Origin: Pilibacter termitis
Lineage (GTDB): Bacteria; Bacillota; Bacilli; Lactobacillales; Streptococcaceae
Length of the DNA stretch: 64,000 nucleotides
Assembly (NCBI RefSeq): GCF_900167335.1
Contig: NZ_FUXI01000006.1
Coordinates: 49,390-113,389 of the forward strand
Direction: 5' to 3'
Position numbers and translations under genes: made by a program. Under the pieces are notes generated by a model. It did not search any database, had not been told where the DNA came from, and worked only from the letters and a program-made list of their open reading frames with translations. Below are positions 50,151 through 64,000 of the stretch, in pieces. Position 1 is the first letter of the stretch. The number at the start of each line of letters is the position of its first letter.

Positions 50151-50417
50151 ATGGAAGCAGTTGTTTATTCAAATTTTCGCAATAAAATGAAGGCTTATTT
50201 TCGTCAAGTGAATGAAAATATGGAACCTTTGATCGTTGTGAATAAAAACCCAGACGAAAATGTTGTTGTCGTATCAAAGGCGGAATGGGATTCGTTGCAA
50301 GAAACACTTTATGTCATGAGTAATCCGTATTTGTCAGATAAGATTATGAAAGGTATGGAACAAGTTCGCCTTGGGAAAACAGCAAATCACGATTTGATTG
50401 AGGTTGAAGATGAATAA
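50151..50417 (+). CDS. yefM: YefM/Axe-like antitoxin
   Basis: 88 residues of the Phd/YefM fold: MEAVVYSNFRNKMKAYFRQV at the N-terminus for DNA binding, then VVVVSKAEWDSLQETLYVM. The acidic C-terminus (LIEVEDE) should wrap the toxin. ATG follows GAGAGGTGGTGTGACGAC. It overlaps the toxin gene by 8 bases, and both are probably autorepressed by the complex. TATGAT at 50108-50113 is a possible -10. Confidence 0.92.
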   Translation: MEAVVYSNFRNKMKAYFRQVNENMEPLIVVNKNPDENVVVVSKAEWDSLQETLYVMSNPYLSDKIMKGMEQVRLGKTANHDLIEVEDE

Positions 50418-50667
50418 AAGTTTCACAAAAGAAGCATGTGAAGAGTATCTTTACTGGCAAACACAAGACAAAAAGACATTGAAGAAAATCAATAGATTAA
50501 TCAACGACATTGCAAGAAACCCTTTCGAAGGAATCGGGAAACCAGAGCCATTGAAACACATTTATCAAGGGGCATGGTCAAGAAGAATTGATGAGAAAAA
50601 TAGAATGGTGTATATGTTCGATGAAAGAACTATTTATTTAATCTCTTTAAAAGACCACTACGAGTAA
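50410..50667 (+). CDS. yoeB: YoeB/Txe-like mRNA interferase toxin
   Basis: 85 residues. RelE-superfamily ribosome-dependent RNase: KKINRLINDIARNPFEGIGK, LSGx-like WSRRIDEKNRMVYMF and C-terminal LISLKDHYE with the conserved His-Tyr pair. All key regions are present, so it looks intact. ATG 50410 overlaps the antitoxin end. Confidence 0.94.
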   Translation: MNKSFTKEACEEYLYWQTQDKKTLKKINRLINDIARNPFEGIGKPEPLKHIYQGAWSRRIDEKNRMVYMFDERTIYLISLKDHYE

Positions 50668-54151: not shown

Positions 54152-54184
54152 ATCGCAGGGTATATTTTTTATCCTGCGTTTTTA
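54152..54184 (+). terminator. Terminator after prs
   Basis: CGCAGGG and TCCTGCG around an AT-rich loop, followed by TTTTT. Confidence 0.8.
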
Positions 54185-54426: not shown

Positions 54427-55212
54427 ATGTTTGGTAGAAGTAAAAAGAAATCGAGATTTGCTGAGCTAGAGGAACTAGATGAATTTGATTTGTTGGATGA
54501 GGAATTGGATGAGTTAGATGACGAGGAGCTGGATGAGTTATTTGAAAAGACGAAACCAGCTACTAAGAAAAAAGAAGGAAAAATACTTCCTTTTTTACCA
54601 AATAAAGAAACGGTAAAAGAAAGTCCAAAAGTAACTTCAACAGTCGAAGCAGCAAAGAAAGAGGAAGAGAAGAAGGAGGATTTTCAAAAGAAATACGAAC
54701 AAGAACGTCAACTAAAAGAGAATCTTGAGCTAGAGAAAAATGCACTTCAAGAAAGAGTAGAGAAGTTGCAAACAGACCTATCAGCTGTTAGTGCAAATGA
54801 AGAGGCGACCTCTCAGTTAAAAGATTTGAGACAAGAAAATGAGCAACTACAATCACAAATAAAATTGCTCAAGGAAACGAATGAAAATACTAGCAGTTTA
54901 GAATTGAACAATCTAAAGGCAGAAAACGAAAAATTGAAGAACGCTTGGAAAGCTGCCGAAATGCGTGTTCAAGCATTAGAACAAGGGCAGCATACTCAGC
55001 AAGAGATGCCAGCAGGGATTGCGACTTTACTTGAAAAGATCGAAGTGATGGAAAGGCAATTAATCTTCAACGAAAAACTTACCGAGGAATTAACCGAGCA
55101 GAAAGTTCATGCAGAAGAAATTGTGCATAGAACAAAAGAACAGGCAGACCGTATGCTTATTTTGGCACGGCAGAAAGCATTGCAAATTCTTTCGGGAGAA
55201 AATGAAACTTGA
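54427..55212 (+). CDS. Coiled-coil protein A with acidic N-terminus
   Basis: 261 residues, no signal peptide or membrane segment. Residues 10-45 are a run of Asp, Glu and Leu; 46-75 a Lys/Pro linker; 75-190 a long coiled coil; the last 50 a second helical block ending AEEIVHRTKEQADRMLILAR, related in pattern to the C-termini of the three other coiled-coil proteins of this cluster. DivIVA- or AtpF-like tails of this kind drive oligomers. No family identified. It heads the cluster and is followed by coiled-coil protein B. Confidence 0.75.
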   Translation: MFGRSKKKSRFAELEELDEFDLLDEELDELDDEELDELFEKTKPATKKKEGKILPFLPNKETVKESPKVTSTVEAAKKEEEKKEDFQKKYEQERQLKENLELEKNALQERVEKLQTDLSAVSANEEATSQLKDLRQENEQLQSQIKLLKETNENTSSLELNNLKAENEKLKNAWKAAEMRVQALEQGQHTQQEMPAGIATLLEKIEVMERQLIFNEKLTEELTEQKVHAEEIVHRTKEQADRMLILARQKALQILSGENET

Positions 55213-55244
55213 GAAAAATAAATAGAAATAAGAAGGAAAATAGG

Positions 55245-55739
55245 ATGACACGAAGGAATGCGATAACAAATGAAATAGACAATTTTTTTAATGAAGTACA
55301 TGAAGCAGAAATCGAAGTATTGCAAAGCGAAATTAAATCTTTAAAAGCTCAACTGAGTGAAAAAGGTAGTAGTCAAGCAACGCCTATTTCACCTAAGGTC
55401 TTGAACATTGTTTCAAGAGAAAGAGAGCTAGAAAATCGTGTAAAAGCACTTGAGGAGGAAAATAGACGCTTGAGAATGCAAATGCAGCTGCCTAAAATTT
55501 CTGCAGAACCTGCGGAAAAGGAACAAATTGCAGATGTTCTCTTACTTGCACAGGCACAAGCAAGAGAAATTCAAAGGAGAGCTGAAATAGAAGCTGAGCA
55601 AATGAAACGTTCTGCACAAGCTCGCATATTAGAGTTGCAAAAAGAAGGGGATGTACTCCATGCAAAACTAAGCACGCTTCTCCATGAAAACAATGAGACA
55701 TTAAAAAAATTAATAAGTAAATCAGAAAATTGGCAGTAG
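55245..55739 (+). CDS. Coiled-coil protein B
   Basis: 164 residues, soluble. N-terminal coiled coil (EAEIEVLQSEIKSLKAQL), a Pro/Ser hinge, a second coil with ENRVKALEEENRRLR, then the shared block IADVLLLAQAQAREIQRRAE and a KEGD..HAKL end. ATG 55245 follows AAGGAAAATAGG; the longer frame would use TTG at 55209. It overlaps no gene but ends 29 bp before the DUF916 protein start, so it is co-transcribed with it. Confidence 0.75.
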   Translation: MTRRNAITNEIDNFFNEVHEAEIEVLQSEIKSLKAQLSEKGSSQATPISPKVLNIVSRERELENRVKALEEENRRLRMQMQLPKISAEPAEKEQIADVLLLAQAQAREIQRRAEIEAEQMKRSAQARILELQKEGDVLHAKLSTLLHENNETLKKLISKSENWQ

Positions 55740-55768
55740 GCTATAAGTCAAGTAAAGGAGCAATTAGA

Positions 55769-56911
55769 ATGGGAATGAAAAATAAGCTAAAGCGATATTT
55801 AAAGGTTGTTTTGATATTTGCTTTAGCATTGGGGGTATCAGGAAATTTTCGCCGAGTGTTTGCAGCAGATAAAACAGGTGCGATTACGGGGACAGGTTTT
55901 ACGTATGAGTTAGTATTTCCAGAAAATCAAACAGGCTCATACGGGTACTATGATTTGAAAATGGCACCTGATCAAAAACAGGAATTGACAATAAAGTTAA
56001 ACAATCCATATCCTGAAGAAATCAAGGTGGATGTAATCATTGATAGTGCAAAAACAGGAAGCAACGGAGTAATTGATTATAACAGAAATACTCTAGCAGT
56101 TGACAAGAGTTTGAAACACAATATTAAAGATATTGTCAAGGCGGAAAAAACAGTTACTATTCCACCGAAATCAAAAATTGATCTTCCTATAAAAATTACC
56201 ATGCCTAAGGTAGAATTTGACGGAGTATTGCTAGGAAGTATTTATATGGAACGTCAAACTACTCAAAAGGAAAAGGAACAACAGACAGGCTCTGTTAGAA
56301 ATATATATTCCTATTCTGTTGGACTCTTATTGCGTGAAAATGACAAAAAAACCGAAAAGAAACTTGAGTTGAATGGTGTCAAGGCAGGGCTTGACAACTA
56401 TCGCAATTCTGTTATTTTGAGTTTTTCAAATGTGCAACCTGAAATTTTACCAAAACTTTCGATTGAAGCTGAGGTAATGAAAAAAGGGAGTAAAGAAGTG
56501 CTTTGGGATACAAGGAAAACAGATATGCGTATGGCACCGAATAGTTTGCTGAACTTCCCAGTCAGTATGCAAGGTGAGGCGATGACCGCAGGGAAATATA
56601 CTGCTCATATCATCGCTCGAAGCGAGGACAAGAAGTGGGAGTGGAACGAGGATTTTGAGATTACGCAAGAGCAGGCTGAAAAATACAATCAAGAAGACGT
56701 TGGTTTGATTCAAGAGCGTGGTTTGGATTGGAAGTTGATTGTGATTATTGTTGTAGCAATTCTTCTATTGTTCCTATTGATTTTCTTAGTTATCCGCAGA
56801 AGACGGAAAAAGGAGGAAGAAGAAAAACGTGAGGAGCTATTACGCCGTAAAAAAGCATTGCTAAAAAGAAAACGTGCATTAGAAGCACAAAAAAATCAAG
56901 AAAATGAATAA
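55769..56911 (+). CDS. DUF916/DUF3324 surface protein (WxL-interacting type)
   Basis: 380 residues. Signal peptide (cleavage near FA-AD at 32-33), DUF916 domain to about 160 (GFTYELVFPENQ, YYDLKMAPDQKQELTIKL, FDGVLLGSIYM), DUF3324 domain to about 305, one membrane segment (about 321-342) and a cytosolic tail very rich in Lys, Arg and Glu. Family members bind WxL proteins and peptidoglycan at the cell surface. No WxL protein is seen in this window. ATG 55769 follows AAAGGAGCAATTAGA. The tail could dock on the acidic coiled-coil proteins. Confidence 0.88.
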   Translation: MGMKNKLKRYLKVVLIFALALGVSGNFRRVFAADKTGAITGTGFTYELVFPENQTGSYGYYDLKMAPDQKQELTIKLNNPYPEEIKVDVIIDSAKTGSNGVIDYNRNTLAVDKSLKHNIKDIVKAEKTVTIPPKSKIDLPIKITMPKVEFDGVLLGSIYMERQTTQKEKEQQTGSVRNIYSYSVGLLLRENDKKTEKKLELNGVKAGLDNYRNSVILSFSNVQPEILPKLSIEAEVMKKGSKEVLWDTRKTDMRMAPNSLLNFPVSMQGEAMTAGKYTAHIIARSEDKKWEWNEDFEITQEQAEKYNQEDVGLIQERGLDWKLIVIIVVAILLLFLLIFLVIRRRRKKEEEEKREELLRRKKALLKRKRALEAQKNQENE

Positions 56912-57040
56912 TGAGCTAAGGATTAAGTGAAAAAAGCTTGTTGTAAAAGGATGGAAAAATTCAGATGTTGTTATCGCTATTAGCAAGGTTGGAATATCAG
57001 CTCCTTACAAATAAAATAGGGAACGAAAGGAGGGGGCAAT
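56912..57040. other. Short intergenic gap in the surface cluster
   Basis: About 130 bp without clear promoter or terminator; transcription probably continues. Confidence 0.3.
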
Positions 57041-57706
57041 TTGAGTTTATGGGATAAGTTGATTATCGCTGGGGTTTGCTTGGCAATAGTTCTTGGCGTG
57101 TTACTTTTGGTAAATGTCGTTGTCGCCCTTCGGCGTACAAAAGACATTAAGGAAATCGCTAAAAAGAGATTCAAAAAGGAGTCGACACAAAAAAAACAGC
57201 AACTTTTAATATTGCATGAAAAGCGTAAGAGAGAGAAAAATGTGTTGATCTCTATATTTCTGTTTGTTTTTACCTTGCTTTCATTAGGAGGAGCATGGTA
57301 TGCATATTTTTGGCAATCAACCAATTTAACACAGGCAGATGTTAATGCGTTTGTAAATGGATATTATTATGTAGACGATTTGCAAACTGCTCTAAAATCG
57401 CTCAAAGAAAGTGGAGATGAGAAAAAGTATCAAAACGAGATTCACGTCTTGAGCAATCGCTTGACGAATTACGGGATAATAAAAGCTGATACGAGTCTTA
57501 GTGTCGAAGGTCAGCAGCTTTTAAATCATTACTATGCACAGTTAAAGGAACTTGGTGTTAGTATGAGTAATCAATTGGCAGTCTACCTAAATGACGGTGA
57601 AGTACAAAAGGATGTAGAACGCCATGTTGAGCGTATCAAAGGTCAAGAGAAAAAAATTATTCAGACCTATAAAATTAATGAGCAGGCATTGAATACAAAA
57701 AAATAA
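57041..57706 (+). CDS. Two-TM protein with basic cytosolic loop and extracellular domain
   Basis: 221 residues. TM1 at about 7-29, a 37-residue loop with some 15 Lys/Arg, TM2 at about 68-90, then a 130-residue polar helical domain. By the positive-inside rule the loop is cytosolic and the C-terminal domain outside. No family recognised. Start is TTG, eight bases after AAAGGAGG; no ATG nearby would keep TM1. Confidence 0.7.
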   Translation: MSLWDKLIIAGVCLAIVLGVLLLVNVVVALRRTKDIKEIAKKRFKKESTQKKQQLLILHEKRKREKNVLISIFLFVFTLLSLGGAWYAYFWQSTNLTQADVNAFVNGYYYVDDLQTALKSLKESGDEKKYQNEIHVLSNRLTNYGIIKADTSLSVEGQQLLNHYYAQLKELGVSMSNQLAVYLNDGEVQKDVERHVERIKGQEKKIIQTYKINEQALNTKK

Positions 57707-57850
57707 AGAGCAGAATGAATGTTGAGGACACGGGAGATTCAGATAATATTTCTTTATTCTCTAATTCTAGGATTCTGAAATGACGAGCTATAATTTCGGT
57801 AATTGTTTGATTTTGAGAGTGTGAAAAGGAATATTTTCTGAGCCTCCTGT

Positions 57851-57958
57851 ATATGTACTCAATTAGCTAAATAAGTTCTTTGCATATATAAGGTTGTTTT
57901 TTTGGGAGCTTTATGTCATTAAAAAAAATCTGTATTATTTAGTTAATTGAGTATATAT
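57851..57958. repeat. Inverted repeat of 24 bp with 60-bp centre
   Basis: TACTCAATTAGCTAAATAA at 57856-57874 and TTATTTAGTTAATTGAGTA at 57935-57953 are complementary with one mismatch; extending outwards gives 24 bp with two mismatches. It is unlike the other two repeat families and appears once in the window. It could be a small transposon relic or a paired operator. Confidence 0.65.
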
Positions 57959-57961
57959 AAA

Positions 57962-58058
57962 GGATGACGCTAAAAACTTTGCTAAATACCTGATGTGTTA
58001 GTTTATAAGAAATGGACGACTAGCTTTTTTAGGGAAGTGTGAACTTTTAAACGTTTTG
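57962..58058. mobile_element. Degenerate MITE (family 1) in the leader of the first signal peptidase gene
   Basis: Left end GATGACGCTAAAAACT and right end GTGTGAACTTTTAAACG keep the family layout, with CTAGC/GTTAG inner arms, but many substitutions. It ends 10 bp before the signal peptidase start, whose ribosome site follows at once. Confidence 0.55.
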
Positions 58059-58068
58059 GGGAAAAGAT

Positions 58069-58701
58069 ATGGAAAAATGGACAACTGAGGAAAAAAGACT
58101 ATATCTAAAAAGGCTGAAGAAAAAACAGTTAATGTTGCAATTAAAAAAAGAAAGAGCAAAAAAAGAAAGAAGAAAAAAAATTCAACGAGATGTTTTGCTT
58201 GCATTTGTTGTTGCTCTTTTTTTCTTTTTCATTTGTCTCTTTATTCTTTATCGACCGACTGTTAGTAGTGGTTATTCTATGTTGCCAACAGTAAATGATG
58301 GTGAGTTAATTTTAGCCAATCGTTTCAGTAATATTCGTCGATATAATCTTGTTCTCATTCGAGAGCAACAGAAAAATCAGCTATCTATTAGGCGTGTAAT
58401 TGGTTTGCCTAATGAGAAACTGGAATATCGTAAAGATGTGCTTTATATAAATGGTCAAGAGCATATGGAAAAATATATAGCCAGCGAGATACAAAAATCA
58501 AAAGAAAGCGACACTCAGTATACGGAGGATTTTTCAATTGAAAATCTAACAGGAAAAGACACGATACCAGCGGGGAAATATTTTGTGCTAGGAGATAATC
58601 GCAGTTTTGCAGTAGATAGTCGCTCATATGGTTTTGTTGATAAGAAAGATATTCTAGGCGTTTGTCAGATTGATTTATCCAGAATTTGCTGGATAGAATA
58701 G
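58069..58701 (+). CDS. Signal peptidase I homologue with Arg in place of catalytic Lys
   Basis: 210 residues. A very basic N-terminal helix (1-40) lies in the cytosol, then TM (41-61), then the extracellular S26 peptidase fold. The nucleophile is present in SSGYSMLPT (S70). Where active type-I enzymes have (V/I)KR, this one reads SIRRVIGLP, so the general base Lys is Arg108. Box E, LGDNRSFAVDSRSYG, is intact. It may be inactive or act as a chaperone, as reported for SipA-type proteins of streptococcal pilus loci. ATG follows GGGGAAAAGAT. Confidence 0.85.
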   Translation: MEKWTTEEKRLYLKRLKKKQLMLQLKKERAKKERRKKIQRDVLLAFVVALFFFFICLFILYRPTVSSGYSMLPTVNDGELILANRFSNIRRYNLVLIREQQKNQLSIRRVIGLPNEKLEYRKDVLYINGQEHMEKYIASEIQKSKESDTQYTEDFSIENLTGKDTIPAGKYFVLGDNRSFAVDSRSYGFVDKKDILGVCQIDLSRICWIE

Positions 58702-58800
58702 TTTTGTCTTATACTGATTTAACTCAAAAATATAATGAAATCAACGTTTTTTAGAGTTGAATTAATATTTGTGTAGATGAATATAGGAGAAAGAGTTGAA

Positions 58801-59337
58801 ATGGAAAGTTTTTGCACACGTATAAAATTATTATATTTGCGACTTGGTCGTGTGAATAGGTTGAAATTGAGCATGAGCATGAGTATAGTTGTTCTTGCTT
58901 TCGTTGTTGGAATGTTTTTCCTAAATATTCAATTATTCAGAGTAGAGGGAAATTCCATGTTTCCTACTTTGAAAAATAACTCCGTTTGTTTTGTGAAAAA
59001 GACGAAAGAAATCGAGAAATATGATATAGTTGCATTTCGGCGAGAGAAAAAGGTGCTTTGCAAGCGTGCGGTAGCGACATCAGGTATGTATATACGAGTA
59101 AAAGATACACGTGTAAGTTTTGCACAAGAACCATTTGACACGGTGTTTGAAGTCCCAAATGCAGTAGAGCTAAATGTTACAACGACTAATCAAGTAGCAA
59201 GGGAGTTGTCCGTATTGCAAAGAGTGCCAAGCGGTTATCTATTTGTTTTAGGGGATAATTTCTCCTCATCTCATGACTCAAGAGAATTTGGCTTAGTCAG
59301 CATGGAAGATGTTATAGGGAAGGTGATAGTCAGGTAA
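58801..59337 (+). CDS. Signal peptidase I homologue with complete Ser-Lys dyad
   Basis: 178 residues, one TM (about 25-45). Nucleophile S52 in GNSMFPT and general base K88 in LCKRAVA; box E LGDNFSSSHDSREFG. The domain is short and divergent from housekeeping signal peptidases, as in pilus and other dedicated loci. ATG 58801 follows ATAGGAG; the upstream ATG at 58777 lacks a ribosome site. It lies 99 bp after the Arg108 paralogue. Confidence 0.85.
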   Translation: MESFCTRIKLLYLRLGRVNRLKLSMSMSIVVLAFVVGMFFLNIQLFRVEGNSMFPTLKNNSVCFVKKTKEIEKYDIVAFRREKKVLCKRAVATSGMYIRVKDTRVSFAQEPFDTVFEVPNAVELNVTTTNQVARELSVLQRVPSGYLFVLGDNFSSSHDSREFGLVSMEDVIGKVIVR

Positions 59338-59384
59338 AATAATTTAGCTTTATTTAATAGAATTTGTTTTCATAAAAAAATTCT

Positions 59385-59427
59385 AAGCTAGACGAAGAAA
59401 GGGAAAAAATAGTCTGGCTTTTTTTAT
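59385..59427 (+). terminator. Terminator after the signal peptidase pair
   Basis: AAGCTAGAC pairs with GTCTGGCTT, followed by TTTTTT. It separates the first part of the cluster from the coiled-coil C gene. Confidence 0.75.
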
Positions 59428-59600
59428 TTGGCTACTATGTTAAATTTTAAAAATTTCATTAAAGTAATAAAAAAATAGCAGATGTAAGCGTTCAATGCTG
59501 TGATTCGACTTGAAATACTTGCATTTTTTGCAGATTGTATGATAATAGAAGATAGCGAGACTGTAAACAATAGATTGAAGATAATTTAGAGGTGTAAACT

Positions 59601-60611
59601 ATGTTTGGAAAAAATAATAAAAATTCGTTAGAAGATGTACGTTCAATGCTAAAAGAAAGTTATGAGAGTGAAATCAAAAATCTTGAGTCAGAAATAGATG
59701 AGCTTGATGAGACGCTTGCTAAAAAGAACAAGCAAATTCAAGAACTACTTGGGCTTGAGGAACAAAATGCTACTTTGAAAAAAGAGGTGGAAGATACGAA
59801 GGCTCTTTTGGCGAAGAAAGAAACAGAATTAGGAGACGGTTCGCTTAGTGTGTTTGACTCAGCTGACGATGGGAAGGTAGAAGAACTTCAAAATGAAATT
59901 AACAGCTTGAAAACTCGCCTTGACTTGGCAACTCAAGAACTTGCGAGTAAAGAGAATGCTGGCGAAGTAGATACTTCTGCTCTCCAAAAATTAACTGAAG
60001 AAAACGTACAATTAAAAGAGTTAATTGCTAAATATTCCGCAGAAAATGCTAAGGAAATCGGAAATAGTGCAGTAGAGGAGACGTTGAAAGCTGAAAATGA
60101 CGTTTTAAAAGAAGAAATGTCAAATTACCGCAAATCTATTGCAGATTTACGTGTGCAGTTGTTAGGTTTACAAGAAGAAAATGTAAATTTGAAAACTTCA
60201 ACGGATACAACTGATTTGCAGAAAACAGTGAACGAAATGAGTCAAGAACGCCAAAACTTGATGAAAAACGAGCAAGTGAGCAAGGAATTGCTGGCGAATG
60301 CACAAGAAAAAATTAAAGAATTAGAGCAACAATTGGCGGATGCTAATATGGAATTATTGTCTGCCAAGCAAGCAAGTAATAGTTCTAAAGAAGATATAGC
60401 AGATGTTCTAATCTATGCTAAAATACAAGCAGAAAAAATAGTTGAAGATGCACAAGTTGAGAGTGAACGTATTCAAAGAGAGGCAAGAGAAAAAGTCAAA
60501 TCTTTGAAAGACCAAGGCAGTGAATTTTATCAGCAAATACATGATTTCAATAAAAACAATGTAGCAATGCTGACATATCTGGAAACAGAAGCGAAAAAAT
60601 TAGCCGAATAA
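59601..60611 (+). CDS. Coiled-coil protein C (DivIVA-like)
   Basis: 336 residues, soluble and acidic, almost wholly coiled coil. The N-terminus MFGKNNKNSLEDVRSML resembles protein A's MFGRSKKK start. SYESEIKNLESEIDELD (about 20-36) is repeated nearly exactly in protein D. The C-terminal block EDIADVLIYAKIQAEKIVED, followed by AQVESERI and REKVKSLKDQGSEFY, has the DivIVA/AtpF heptad pattern. ATG follows TAGAGGTGTAAACT. Likely a self-assembling cytosolic scaffold. Confidence 0.78.
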   Translation: MFGKNNKNSLEDVRSMLKESYESEIKNLESEIDELDETLAKKNKQIQELLGLEEQNATLKKEVEDTKALLAKKETELGDGSLSVFDSADDGKVEELQNEINSLKTRLDLATQELASKENAGEVDTSALQKLTEENVQLKELIAKYSAENAKEIGNSAVEETLKAENDVLKEEMSNYRKSIADLRVQLLGLQEENVNLKTSTDTTDLQKTVNEMSQERQNLMKNEQVSKELLANAQEKIKELEQQLADANMELLSAKQASNSSKEDIADVLIYAKIQAEKIVEDAQVESERIQREAREKVKSLKDQGSEFYQQIHDFNKNNVAMLTYLETEAKKLAE

Positions 60612-60635
60612 AAAATGAAGCTAGGACGGTGGAAG

Positions 60636-61739
60636 ATGAGTAGAGAATTTCAAGTAGAGTATCAGACAATGTATGGGAAAAGAGCGAAGGAGAAAACGAT
60701 TTTTAAGGTTTCGAAGTCCTTGTTTGACCATATTCTTTCTCATGCTAAGGAACAATATGAATTGAGATATCTCTATCCATTTCCTACCCAGACCATTCAG
60801 ATTTTTTTGGAGAAAAGATTTGCCCAAAATACGATTGCACCTTCGTTTTTGATGGTAACGGTCGAAAAAAAGGTAAAGGAAATTGATGATGAAGGCTATA
60901 TAAAAATATTTGTAGAGGAATTTCCAGAGTTTATTTTGAGAAGTGTAAATGTACTTGAGGAGGAAAGCAAAACTCGCTATACGTTTGAATTTCTTCCTGT
61001 TTCAATAAACGAGGAAAGTCCAATCGTACGAACAGGATTTCTCGCTTTTACTCCGCAGTTGACCCCGCAGGCTTGTGTTTTTCGATTGCAACAGAAACTA
61101 GAGCGAGCGTACCAAAAGCGTATAGTAGATGAGGGAAGAGTGAATGCTTTTGAAAAGTTTTCCATTCAGCAAGCAAATGTTTCTTTTGGGCAGTTGCCGG
61201 AAAAAATGGAAACGGCTGTTTCTGAACAAAAAAGTGAAGAAATGTTACAGTTACTAGAATTGCGTACGGAAAACCATCTTTTATTGATTGAAAACAAAAA
61301 ATATCACAATCTTTTTTCTGTGGATGAAAAAAACTCTGATAAAGGAAAATGGAAAGTGTTATCTGCTCAAGAATATGATGATTTAAGCGAGAGAGTTCGA
61401 TTTGTTAGCAAATTGTGGGAAATACATACGCAGCTTTTACGCTTATTGTCAAGCAATACAGAACGCAAAGCGACAAATGCTAAGCGAGAAAAAATGCTCA
61501 CAATTCAGCATTCTTTATCACAGCTGAGAATGGAGAAAATAATAGAGGAGGGTGAGCGACTAGCTGCTCGCAAGCTATTTAAGAAATTTTTATTTGTTCG
61601 TACTGGAAAAGTAAAGATTTTACAAGAGGATTATGCTAGGTTATTGGAAATCTCTTCTTTCTCGCATTTTTTAGAGGAAGAAAATACACGTATAAAAGAA
61701 CTAGCAAATGCTCCAAGTGGTGTAATTGAGGAAATATAG
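60636..61739 (+). CDS. Cytosolic protein of unknown function in the surface cluster
   Basis: 367 residues, no signal peptide or TM. N-terminal half looks globular with alternating strands (QTMYGKRAKEKTIFKVSKSL; IKIFVEEFPEFILRSVNVL); the C-terminal half is charged and helical. No family recognised. ATG 60636 follows TAGGACGGTGGAAG; the ATG at 60615 has no ribosome site. It starts 24 bp after protein C and ends 13 bp before the Ser/Thr-rich protein, so it is in one operon with both. Confidence 0.7.
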   Translation: MSREFQVEYQTMYGKRAKEKTIFKVSKSLFDHILSHAKEQYELRYLYPFPTQTIQIFLEKRFAQNTIAPSFLMVTVEKKVKEIDDEGYIKIFVEEFPEFILRSVNVLEEESKTRYTFEFLPVSINEESPIVRTGFLAFTPQLTPQACVFRLQQKLERAYQKRIVDEGRVNAFEKFSIQQANVSFGQLPEKMETAVSEQKSEEMLQLLELRTENHLLLIENKKYHNLFSVDEKNSDKGKWKVLSAQEYDDLSERVRFVSKLWEIHTQLLRLLSSNTERKATNAKREKMLTIQHSLSQLRMEKIIEEGERLAARKLFKKFLFVRTGKVKILQEDYARLLEISSFSHFLEEENTRIKELANAPSGVIEEI

Positions 61740-61752
61740 AGGTGTTGAAAGA

Positions 61753-62634
61753 ATGAGAAAAGGGATAACGAAGATACTACTTATCATGATGCTTTCATTT
61801 GTAAGTAATTTCTATATTTCAGACGTATCCTCAGCAGCAACTGAGGATACCGTTGTGTTAAAGATGGTTGATAATAAAAATCCGAAAGCATGGAAAATAT
61901 CAGCAGAAATTGTAAGAGATGGTAAAAATATTCCAGCTAATAATACAACAGAGCAAGTGAAAATTGTTGTAGGAAGAATGGATAATTACATTACAAAGGG
62001 AAAGATTGAAATTGCAACAGACCAAGATGGAATCGCCTATCTTGATTTAGAGCAACTTTACAAAGAGGACAAGACTGCACCAAAGGAATCTTATGTTGTT
62101 TTGTTGCCACTTTCTATTAACAATAAATTGTTAAATGGCAATAGCGAGAATTTGGAAGAGAAGATGACAGAGGAGTGTTTTAAACAGCTGAAAACTCAAA
62201 CAACGAGTTCGACAAGTAGCAGTGCAGGTGTGACGACTTCCACAACAATTAGCAAGGAAAAGGAAAGTGGAGAGACGAGTGTTTCTTCTTCGCAAAAAAA
62301 GGAGAATGAAAGTTCATCTACGACGAGTTCATCCGAGGCAAAAGATACGACTAGTACAAGTTCTACTAGCCAAGCGGCAACTACTACTCAGTCAAGTGAG
62401 AAAACTACTTCAGTAGCTCCTAAAGCTAAGAGAAATTTTCTTCCGTATATTCTTTTGATTTTAATCGCTTTGCTTACAGTAGGTGGTGTTGCCTTATTCT
62501 TCTGGGTGAAACGGCGACGTGAGCAAGAGCAACTAGAGTTAATTGAATTGTTCTATAAAGAAGAAGTAAGACGCATGAGAGAACGTAGAGAAAAGAGAAG
62601 AAAAAGGCGAAAAAAGGTGCCTAGAAACACTTAA
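61753..62634 (+). CDS. Ser/Thr-rich single-TM surface protein with basic tail
   Basis: 293 residues. Signal peptide to about residue 28, an extracellular domain of about 120 residues (KVDN-like start, GRMDNYITKGKIEIATDQDG), a low-complexity Ser/Thr stalk (about 150-220), a TM at about 229-251 and a 41-residue tail with some 20 Arg/Lys. There is no LPXTG motif, so it is anchored by the TM. The stalk could be glycosylated. ATG 61753 follows AGAGGTGTTGAAAGA. Confidence 0.78.
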   Translation: MRKGITKILLIMMLSFVSNFYISDVSSAATEDTVVLKMVDNKNPKAWKISAEIVRDGKNIPANNTTEQVKIVVGRMDNYITKGKIEIATDQDGIAYLDLEQLYKEDKTAPKESYVVLLPLSINNKLLNGNSENLEEKMTEECFKQLKTQTTSSTSSSAGVTTSTTISKEKESGETSVSSSQKKENESSSTTSSSEAKDTTSTSSTSQAATTTQSSEKTTSVAPKAKRNFLPYILLILIALLTVGGVALFFWVKRRREQEQLELIELFYKEEVRRMRERREKRRKRRKKVPRNT

Positions 62635-62668
62635 AAACCCAAGAATAATGCTAAAAGTAAAAAAACGC

Positions 62669-62697
62669 TTGCGTAATTCCTTAAAGAATTGTAATAT
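62669..62697 (+). promoter_or_regulatory. Promoter of the coiled-coil D gene
   Basis: TTGCGT (62669-62674), 17 bp, TAATAT (62692-62697) in the 178-bp gap before the gene. Confidence 0.6.
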
Positions 62698-62812
62698 TAA
62701 GGAGTATATAGGTTTTATTGAATGTGGTTCTCTTTATAAAGCGATAAGATAGACAAAAAGTTTTATAAGTTTCCATATAACAGAGAGAAAAACGAGAAAG
62801 GTATGGTTTAGT

Positions 62813-63796
62813 ATGGTAGCCAAAGATAACTCATTAGATAGCTTGAAAGAAATGCTATCTTCTACTTATGAAAGTGAAATCAAGAATTTAGAGTCAGAGA
62901 TTGATGAATTGGACAAAACGATTGAAAAGCAAGAACAGCAGATCGAAAATTTGACTCAGTTTGAAAAGAAGAATCAAACGCTAGAGGCAGAAATTAAAAA
63001 ACTAAATGATTTATTGGTTGCAAAAGAACAAGAAATTCAAGAACAACCAAATGTTAGTGATGTACTTGCTCCTTATCAAGAGAAGATTTTAGCGTTAGAG
63101 CAAAAACTAGAACAGTCAAATCAAGAATTAGCGAAAGTAACAGAACAAGCTACACAAGCTGCTCAACAAGCACAAAGCAATGAAAACAATAGTGTTGCAT
63201 ATCAAAAATTAACAGATGAAAACACTCGTTTGAAACAAGAGCAAACTAAAAGTGCTGAGCTTGTAAATGAATTGAAAAAACAACTGGCACATAGCCAAGA
63301 AGAACATACAGATATGGTTTCAAGAAATGAGTATTTAAGATTGAAATCTGATTTTGTTGACTTGAACGAGAAGTATCAAGAAGCTCAAGGGAAAAATGAA
63401 TCGAACTTTAGAGAAGATTTCTCAGAAGTATTGGTGGGATATGAAACGCAATTGATGGAATTGCAAAACAAACTTGATGAGACCAATAAAACGAGTGCGG
63501 AATTACAAGCAGAGAACAACCGCTTGAAACGTGAGATGGAAGAAGCAAAAGACAATCTTCACTCTATGTCAGCAGAAGATATTGCAGATGTCTTGATTAG
63601 TGCGAAAATCCAAGCGAAGAAAATTGTTAATCGTGCAGAACAAGAGGCAGATCACATCGTCGCTGATGCACGTGAACGCTTGAGTTTCTTAAAAGGCGAG
63701 GGGGATTCATATTATACTCAACTAGAAGAACTAGCACGACAAAACGAAGATTTTATCAAACGCTTGAGAGAAAAAGCAGAAGGAATCAAACGTTAA
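62813..63796 (+). CDS. Coiled-coil protein D, paralogue of C
   Basis: 327 residues, soluble. N-terminus SLKEMLSSTYESEIKNLESE matches protein C (YESEIKNLESEIDELD in both). The middle is Gln/Glu-rich coiled coil. The C-terminal block EDIADVLISAKIQAKKIVNR is again near-identical in pattern to protein C, ending with RLSFLKGEGDSYYTQLEEL. It has its own promoter. ATG 62813 follows GAAAGG at 11 bases. Probably forms homo- or hetero-oligomers with C. Confidence 0.8.
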   Translation: MVAKDNSLDSLKEMLSSTYESEIKNLESEIDELDKTIEKQEQQIENLTQFEKKNQTLEAEIKKLNDLLVAKEQEIQEQPNVSDVLAPYQEKILALEQKLEQSNQELAKVTEQATQAAQQAQSNENNSVAYQKLTDENTRLKQEQTKSAELVNELKKQLAHSQEEHTDMVSRNEYLRLKSDFVDLNEKYQEAQGKNESNFREDFSEVLVGYETQLMELQNKLDETNKTSAELQAENNRLKREMEEAKDNLHSMSAEDIADVLISAKIQAKKIVNRAEQEADHIVADARERLSFLKGEGDSYYTQLEELARQNEDFIKRLREKAEGIKR

Positions 63797-63807
63797 AAAG
63801 GTTGATG

Positions 63808-63848
63808 GGGTTTGGAGTTTCTTTGAGATTTCAGACCCTTGTTTTTCG
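63808..63848 (+). terminator. Terminator after the coiled-coil D gene
   Basis: GGGTTTG and CAGACCC around a 17-base centre, then TTGTTTTT. Confidence 0.55.
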
Positions 63849-63940
63849 TTAGGCGTTCAGTGGCTAAAGTATGTGGGAATAATTTTCTTTGAGAACAAGG
63901 CTACTGACTGTAATTTTTTTAGGAATTAAGGTGGATTTGT

Positions 63941-64000
63941 ATGAAACCGATATTGAAACAAGTAAAAATCATCTTTTTTTTCTGCTTTCTTTTTTTTATA
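63941..64000 (+). CDS. Start of a secreted or membrane protein, cut by the window end
   Basis: ATG follows TAAGGTGGATTTGT. The 20 visible codons give a Lys-containing start followed by a strongly hydrophobic, Phe-rich stretch, as in a signal peptide or first TM. The rest lies outside the window. It continues the plus-strand surface cluster. Confidence 0.55.
   Translation, partial: MKPILKQVKIIFFFCFLFFI

Follow-up and report, generated by a model that had tools for sequence, protein, structure and literature searches.

A predicted signal peptidase pair and cytoplasmic coiled coils in a locus related to WxL surface loci

Eleven consecutive plus-strand genes, starting at position 54427 of a 64,000-nucleotide stretch of Pilibacter termitis DNA, raise the question of whether they form a surface-assembly system of their own or derive from a known one. 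The whole stretch, designated here as the window, corresponds to G000:C24:49390-113389 in a Lactobacillales genome of 2.79 Mb and 59 contigs (G, C and L numbers are the handles of genomes, contigs and loci). An earlier note, made from the letters alone, proposed an undescribed locus that builds a surface structure positioned by an internal scaffold. Its gene calls stand: ten open reading frames (ORFs; 54427-63796) are intact, as is the eleventh, which starts at 63941, crosses the window edge and was followed whole beyond it (L008:10331-11278). The answer favoured here, with about even confidence, is that the locus descends, with rearrangement, from a surface locus of the WxL type. The membrane half (WxLIP, mem4, a pseudo-peptidase and an active signal peptidase) would have been kept and the cytoplasmic half enlarged to comprise P8 and four coiled coils, with a hub that gathers the signal peptidase pair and the DUF916 protein for surface-protein assembly. 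The genetic linkage of these parts is well supported. The genes are as follows.

cc1, 54427-55212, plus strand: soluble coiled coil with a very acidic N-terminus
cc2, 55242-55739, plus strand: short coiled coil of the CC family, matched by the CC model
WxLIP (DUF916 and DUF3324), 55775-56911, plus strand: signal peptide, then one transmembrane (TM) helix and a basic cytoplasmic tail
mem4, 57041-57706, plus strand: two TM segments with a basic loop in between; no Pfam or NCBIfam family
sip5, 58069-58701, plus strand: signal peptidase I homologue with the catalytic Ser present, Arg in place of Lys, and a basic N-terminal tail
sip6, 58777-59337, plus strand: signal peptidase I homologue with the Ser/Lys dyad intact
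cc7, 59601-60611, plus strand: acidic coiled coil of the CC family, matched by the CC model
P8, 60615-61739, plus strand: soluble two-part protein, matched by the P8 model, with relatives in Enterococcus and Vagococcus
sec9, 61753-62634, plus strand: signal peptide, outer domain of about 110 residues, Ser/Thr-rich linker, TM segment and basic tail
cc10, 62813-63796, plus strand: acidic coiled coil of the CC family, matched by the CC model
sec11, 63941-64000 in the window and on to L008:11278, plus strand: paralogue of sec9 (36%)

The membrane block and its kinship with WxL loci

The DUF916/DUF3324 protein was recognized correctly in the earlier note. Both Pfam domains are well above their cut-offs (PF06030, E = 4e-33; PF11797, E = 1.5e-45), and with a TM segment at 322-340 the protein is a full-length WxLIP, comprising PGBD, HBD and TM. 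The next gene, mem4, belongs to no Pfam, NCBIfam or PADLOC family. A two-row profile detected mem4 in 48 of the 396 Lactobacillales genomes searched; in 35 the match was strong (E below 1e-20). Many Enterococcus genomes contain at least seven copies each, and the window's genome contains a single one.

Long stretches read around mem4 revealed a recurrent locus with the order giant adhesin, small LPXTG protein, WxL, WxL, DUF916, mem4, signal peptidase (SPase), SPase and a YfhO/PgfM-like protein. Wherever the gene directly upstream of mem4 could be seen (25 loci), it was DUF916, and an S26 peptidase comes next after mem4 in 20 of the 25 loci with a visible neighbour. Compared with the window DUF916, all 24 mem4-class DUF916 proteins (38-46% identity) outscore any of 15 others, including six paralogues from its own genome; in a DUF916 tree these paralogues fall elsewhere, with weak support near the window copy. 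A mem4-type WxL locus is defined here by DUF916 followed by mem4 and by a pseudo-SPase followed by an intact SPase, and both successions are found in the window. The DUF916-mem4-SPase-SPase block is the conserved rear half of a WxL locus type widespread in Enterococcus and Vagococcus. Thus, the locus as a whole cannot be called undescribed.

Two further genes recur at the ends of mem4-type WxL loci. The last gene is often that of a membrane protein like YfhO/PgfM, which is akin to protein glycosylation factors (L111:5734-8358, L117:11358-13982 and similar); this suggests that their adhesins are possibly glycosylated. A protein of 229-239 residues with an OmpR-like C-terminus, recognized by eye, heads many of them (L112:281-991, L115:18540-19238 and similar) and is a possible candidate regulator. 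In L204:6626-7837 (G033), an apparent deletion left a truncated coiled coil upstream of a WxL gene, and the glucosaminidase, giant adhesin and small LPXTG genes are gone.

The window differs from these loci in front of DUF916. A WxL gene was detected just upstream of DUF916 in 23 of 24 comparable loci; no WxL protein was revealed by a domain scan of the ten window proteins or, for sec11, by inspection. This absence would fit the idea of the earlier note, taken here as a self-contained new surface structure in which sec9 and sec11 are the structural subunits, the WxLIP is re-used as a wall anchor, and there are no WxL clients. It would also fit that sec9 and sec11 lie inside the locus and are mutual paralogues built alike, each with an outer domain, a Ser/Thr linker, a TM segment and a basic tail, for which no relatives were found outside their own genome; outside matches were discarded as homologues, being limited to the Ser-rich linker. 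Both proteins have a C-terminal TM segment and no sorting motif, and therefore look like membrane-anchored partners, not polymerising subunits. Moreover, the full-length WxLIP is tightly tied to WxL proteins in the published view (PMC10599100), and other WxL loci of the genome could supply them. A self-contained structure is thus considered unlikely.

These other loci lead to a second alternative, in which an ancestral locus like that of Enterococcus canis has come apart into two halves, one being the window locus, which would mature and anchor the products of the other, on contig C23. The C23 locus, a canonical WxL locus, contains three WxL genes, DUF916, LPXTG, a giant adhesin and a P8 paralogue. 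The paralogue lies directly downstream of the giant adhesin, and P8 adjoins the giant gene in E. canis too; the window locus also holds the only mem4 of the genome and two of its five SPases. The DUF916 of C23, however, is not of the mem4 class and is 32% identical to the window copy, which weakened the view of C23 as no more than the half that the window locus lacks. Such a trans-acting station is given a low probability.

The signal peptidase pair and its basic tails

The two signal peptidase I homologues named in the earlier note are both Peptidase_S26 proteins (8e-37 and 3e-29), and one of them is probably not a conventional enzyme. Aligned with solved SPase I sequences, sip5 (from 58069) keeps the Ser box GYSMLPT and has IRRVIG where active enzymes have (V/I)KR(V/I)IG, with Arg at the position of the catalytic Lys. 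Both dyad residues, Ser and Lys, are kept in sip6. When all the loci collected are considered, the SPase that comes first after mem4 shows the same Lys-to-Arg substitution in 35 of 36, with L099 as the single exception, and has lost the Ser too in 20 (15 Gly and 5 Ala). The dyad of the second SPase is intact in all 28. Outside the locus, the genome encodes three more SPases with intact dyads.

Judged from these residues, sip5 probably belongs to a conserved pseudo-peptidase line, and cleavage by sip5 is improbable. From its intact dyad, sip6 is predicted to be an active signal peptidase I. Many genes annotated as signal peptidase I in mem4-type loci are unlikely to encode active enzymes. A precedent is SipA of Streptococcus pyogenes, which has the SPase fold with Asp/Gly at the dyad positions and is devoid of peptidase activity; polymerisation of the pili requires SipA, and it was proposed to bind a pilus component instead of cleaving it (PMC4049620). 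SipA was not among the matches of sip5 in a phmmer search against PDB.

The N-terminal tails of the SPases in mem4 loci are long and basic. Their medians are 62.5 residues and +22 for the first SPase and 51 residues and +15 for the second, versus 15 residues and +3 for 31 SPases outside mem4 loci (p = 2e-10 against the first and 5e-8 against the second); these controls partly repeat one three-SPase cluster (L205/L214/L221), so that n is inflated and the p-values are somewhat too small. The tails of mem4-class DUF916 proteins have 19-29 residues and +9 to +15. On the acidic side, the N-terminal 80 residues of CC proteins carry about -47 in most Enterococcus. The basic segments of the window are those of sip5 (+12, 41 residues), the mem4 loop (+11), WxLIP (+8, 38 residues), sec9 (+11, 50 residues), sec11 (+13) and sip6 (+2), and cc1 has a net charge of -13 over its first 40 residues. 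Long basic N-terminal tails were also seen in two SPases outside recognised WxL loci, in L224 (+17) and L228 (+29).

The coiled coils, P8 and their neighbours

The four proteins described earlier as soluble coiled coils, cc1, cc2, cc7 and cc10, indeed have no TM segment (net charge -18, -1, -26 and -25, respectively). The count of soluble proteins has to be raised to five: P8 (60615-61739), which had been placed among three or four membrane or secreted proteins of no known family, has no TM segment and is therefore soluble. Models of the CC and P8 families were built without sequences from the window's own genome. The CC model recovers cc10 (E = 4.9e-16), cc7 (E = 1.2e-12) and cc2 (E = 1.2e-8); the genome's own DivIVA scored E = 7.9, and no shuffled copy was among the matches. 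The model did not match cc1, whose N-terminus MFGRSKKKSRFAELEEL is similar by eye to CC proteins of G140 and G206 (MFGKKKKDDLLAELEEL), sharing the N-terminal style only. Because cc2, cc7 and cc10 are matched by a model independent of their own genome, the coiled coils except cc1 are, by sequence, one definable family.

P8 belongs to no Pfam, NCBIfam or PADLOC family. Its model matches the window P8 (E = 1.9e-14) and the C23 paralogue (2e-7), which is 31% identical, and profile searches found P8 in Enterococcus, Vagococcus and others. A weak match in G050 was discarded, as it sits in a glycosidase-like ORF. The CC/P8 module, namely a coiled coil with a KEDIADVLxxAKxQAxxI block plus P8, is present in the window. 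In relatives it has a third member, a glucosaminidase/LysM protein distantly like FlgJ: in 16 of 19 named genomes the three genes lie side by side, the acidic coiled coil first, then the glucosaminidase and P8, and in the remaining three the glucosaminidase lies at a distance of one gene. Among the 396 genomes, 24 have both P8 and mem4, 3 have P8 only, 11 have mem4 only and 358 have neither. The CC family was found in 10 of the 11 genomes with mem4 but without P8 (the eleventh has a truncated coiled coil), beside a glucosaminidase in all five that were read, versus none of six control Lactobacillales genomes without mem4 and P8.

The module was observed beside several kinds of surface system. 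It adjoins a WxL locus, or lies within about 5 kb of one, in eight genomes (E. canis, E. larvae, E. quebecensis, two further Enterococcus species, G328, G140 and G206). In G161 its neighbours are a SipW/archaeal-type SPase and a SipW-dependent matrix protein of the BsaA family (TIGR04090, 72.7 bits against a cut-off of 60). Elsewhere it adjoins type IV pilus genes: in L172, Pfam indicates two T2SSE ATPases, an MshEN domain, an N_methyl prepilin and a glucosaminidase near the module, and L074, L167, L168 and L173 are similar by gene order and prepilin-like N-termini. The P8 N-domain and an S26 peptidase constitute one protein in G067 and G053, with intact dyads (Pfam S26 at 242-379 in G067), and in G139 the P8 N-domain lies directly before an S26 peptidase with an intact dyad. 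The order of the fusion, P8 domain, TM and peptidase, agrees with the established membrane orientation of SPase I. Thus, in the WxL and BsaA settings and in the pilus setting with a fusion, an SPase is close at hand.

Single loci with these arrangements were recorded as well. The P8 N-domain is fused or directly adjacent to an SPase in L172:8207-9352 (minus strand), L174:7976-9118 (minus strand) and L173:9140-10297 (plus strand), and type IV pilus-like genes adjoin in L172 and L173. In L176:10283-18097, a coiled coil, a glucosaminidase and P8 stand beside BsaA-family SipW-dependent matrix proteins and a SipW-type peptidase.

The neighbourhoods, together with the distribution of the CC family, support a role in surface assembly that includes cytoplasmic coiled coils, as the earlier note had supposed; the pseudo-peptidase, the P8 family and the P8-SPase fusion had been missed there. 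They also bear on a third alternative, that the coiled coils and P8 are a separate module of cell-wall growth or division standing beside surface loci by chance. It draws on the weak DivIVA-like C-termini of the coiled coils (25.9 bits for cc10, limited to its C-terminal part at 202-318, 18.0 for cc7 and 15.0 for cc2, all under the curated cut-off of 28), and on the autolysin of the module in relatives, where the module often stands alone. Membership in DivIVA itself was ruled out by the cut-off and by the failure of the CC model to recognise real DivIVA. Against chance placement speak the P8-SPase fusion, the adjacency to several kinds of surface system, the absence of the CC family from the six control genomes, and the coiled coils flanking the SPase pair on both sides in the window. 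This alternative is regarded as improbable.

Setting, proposed mechanism and known systems

The upstream neighbour of the locus is prs. Two terminator-like stems, each a consensus match only, were noted.

Terminator-like stem, 54154-54178, plus strand: in the gap between prs and cc1
Terminator-like stem, 63807-63839, plus strand: in the gap between cc10 and sec11

The G+C content of the locus is 35.3%, and every sampled 9.4-kb stretch in the rest of the window is higher (36.6-41.8%). A serine recombinase gene (PF00239, PF07508) lies directly downstream of sec11 (L008:11366-13033, minus strand), and the contig ends 3.7 kb beyond the window. The low G+C and the recombinase hint at acquisition by a mobile element. 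Further upstream, a small gene pair at 50151-50667 of the window resembles YefM/YoeB toxin-antitoxin genes by eye only. The recombinase, together with the missing WxL, LPXTG, giant adhesin and glucosaminidase genes, might also indicate a decaying relic of a WxL locus. Eleven frames are open, however, neither the sip6 dyad nor the DUF916 domains are damaged, and the coiled coils have increased in number instead of being lost, so a relic is very improbable.

Under the favoured reading of a rearranged WxL-type locus, the acidic coiled coils and P8 would form a hub beneath the membrane, on which the basic cytoplasmic tails of WxLIP, sip5, mem4, sec9 and sec11 would dock electrostatically. Signal peptides would be cleaved there by sip6, and sip5, probably non-cleaving, may hold clients, as proposed for SipA in streptococcal pilus assembly. 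The clients may be sec9 and sec11, WxL proteins from the other WxL loci of the genome, or both. The hub would set the place of surface assembly, and in relatives the module glucosaminidase may open the wall at the same site. More tentatively, the acidic coiled coil and P8 could be a general transferable docking module of Lactobacillales, tying SPases (through basic tails or P8 fusion) and a wall-opening glucosaminidase to unrelated machines, namely WxL complexes, SipW-dependent BsaA fibres and type IV pili; the window would be an expanded WxL-free version.

Several results weigh against the favoured reading. The charge pattern of the window is milder than in relatives (cc1 -13, sip5 +12, sip6 only +2), the positive charge of cytoplasmic tails is partly the ordinary positive-inside rule, and coiled-coil acidity and tail charge are only weakly and not significantly related over ten genomes (rho -0.48, p 0.16). 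No glucosaminidase gene adjoins P8 in the window, although each of the 19 named relatives has one in the module. The P8/mem4 association by genus (5/3/2/71, Fisher p = 4e-5) is uncorrected for phylogeny. The AlphaFold2 model of P8 from 20 sequences is poor (pLDDT 59) and Foldseek gave no PDB match better than E = 0.05, so no fold is claimed for P8; the single-sequence model of sec9 is poor too (pLDDT 54). The full eleven-gene set was found in no second genome. The sole congeneric genome, 59% complete, is negative for mem4.

WxL clusters are common in gut Lactobacillales. The finding points to a conserved pseudo-SPase/SPase pair and a cytoplasmic coiled-coil partner family recurring beside several unrelated surface systems. 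It offers a testable model for the local organisation of Gram-positive export and suggests roles for the unnamed families mem4, P8 and CC. If the docking module is real, it would organise, from inside, the sites at which a Gram-positive cell carries out export and assembles its surface fibres.

Two findings would have refuted the earlier note, namely that the gene set is a named system already or that related genomes do not hold the genes together, and neither came up. Related genomes have the genes in two blocks, which adjoin in some cases, and no named system with the same gene set was found in the accessible literature. The searched passages of PMC1534035, PMC9772566, PMC10599100 and PMC2530867 and the wider paper searches did not show mem4, the SPase pair or the coiled-coil/P8 module, although a prior description elsewhere is possible. 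The coiled-coil/P8 partner module is thus apparently undescribed so far. A WxL cluster is defined in PMC10599100 by one WxLIP and at least two WxL proteins; by this definition the window locus is not a WxL cluster, because it has no WxL protein, though a WxLIP is present. A small LPXTG protein is usual, not essential, in WxL/csc clusters.

Like WxL/csc clusters (Siezen 2006, PMC1534035; Hassan and Williamson, PMC9772566, PMC10599100), the locus has a full-length WxLIP (DUF916, DUF3324 and TM), and its DUF916-mem4-SPase-SPase order is that of many Enterococcus and Vagococcus WxL loci. Unlike them, it is without WxL, LPXTG and large adhesin genes and has four coiled coils, P8 and two unique membrane-anchored proteins. 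It also differs from a sortase-dependent pilus locus in the absence of a pilin-type LPXTG subunit and a pilus sortase. As the earlier note had stated, no LPXTG-type motif was found in the translations of the locus and no sortase gene in the locus; both kinds of gene are elsewhere in the genome, where sortase and SpaA-type pilin genes lie just upstream of a WxL locus (L015:1-6163). Six further DUF916 genes of the genome adjoin WxL-type genes where they were read. A link to BsaA/TasA-SipW and type IV pilus loci is given by the CC/P8 module, which has a BsaA/SipW locus as its neighbour in one case (G161) and pilus ATPases and prepilins in others; unlike those loci, the window has no fibre subunits, SipW-type peptidase or pilus ATPases. 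DivIVA-type scaffolds are likewise cytoplasmic coiled coils, with weak C-terminal similarity to those of the window. Finally, sip5, like SipA of S. pyogenes pili, is an SPase-fold protein without the Ser/Lys dyad within a surface-assembly locus. Unlike SipA, with Asp/Gly at the dyad, sip5 keeps the Ser and has Arg for Lys, and its locus has no sortase or pilin; kinship is not claimed, and the resemblance of sip5 to SipA would be one of function.

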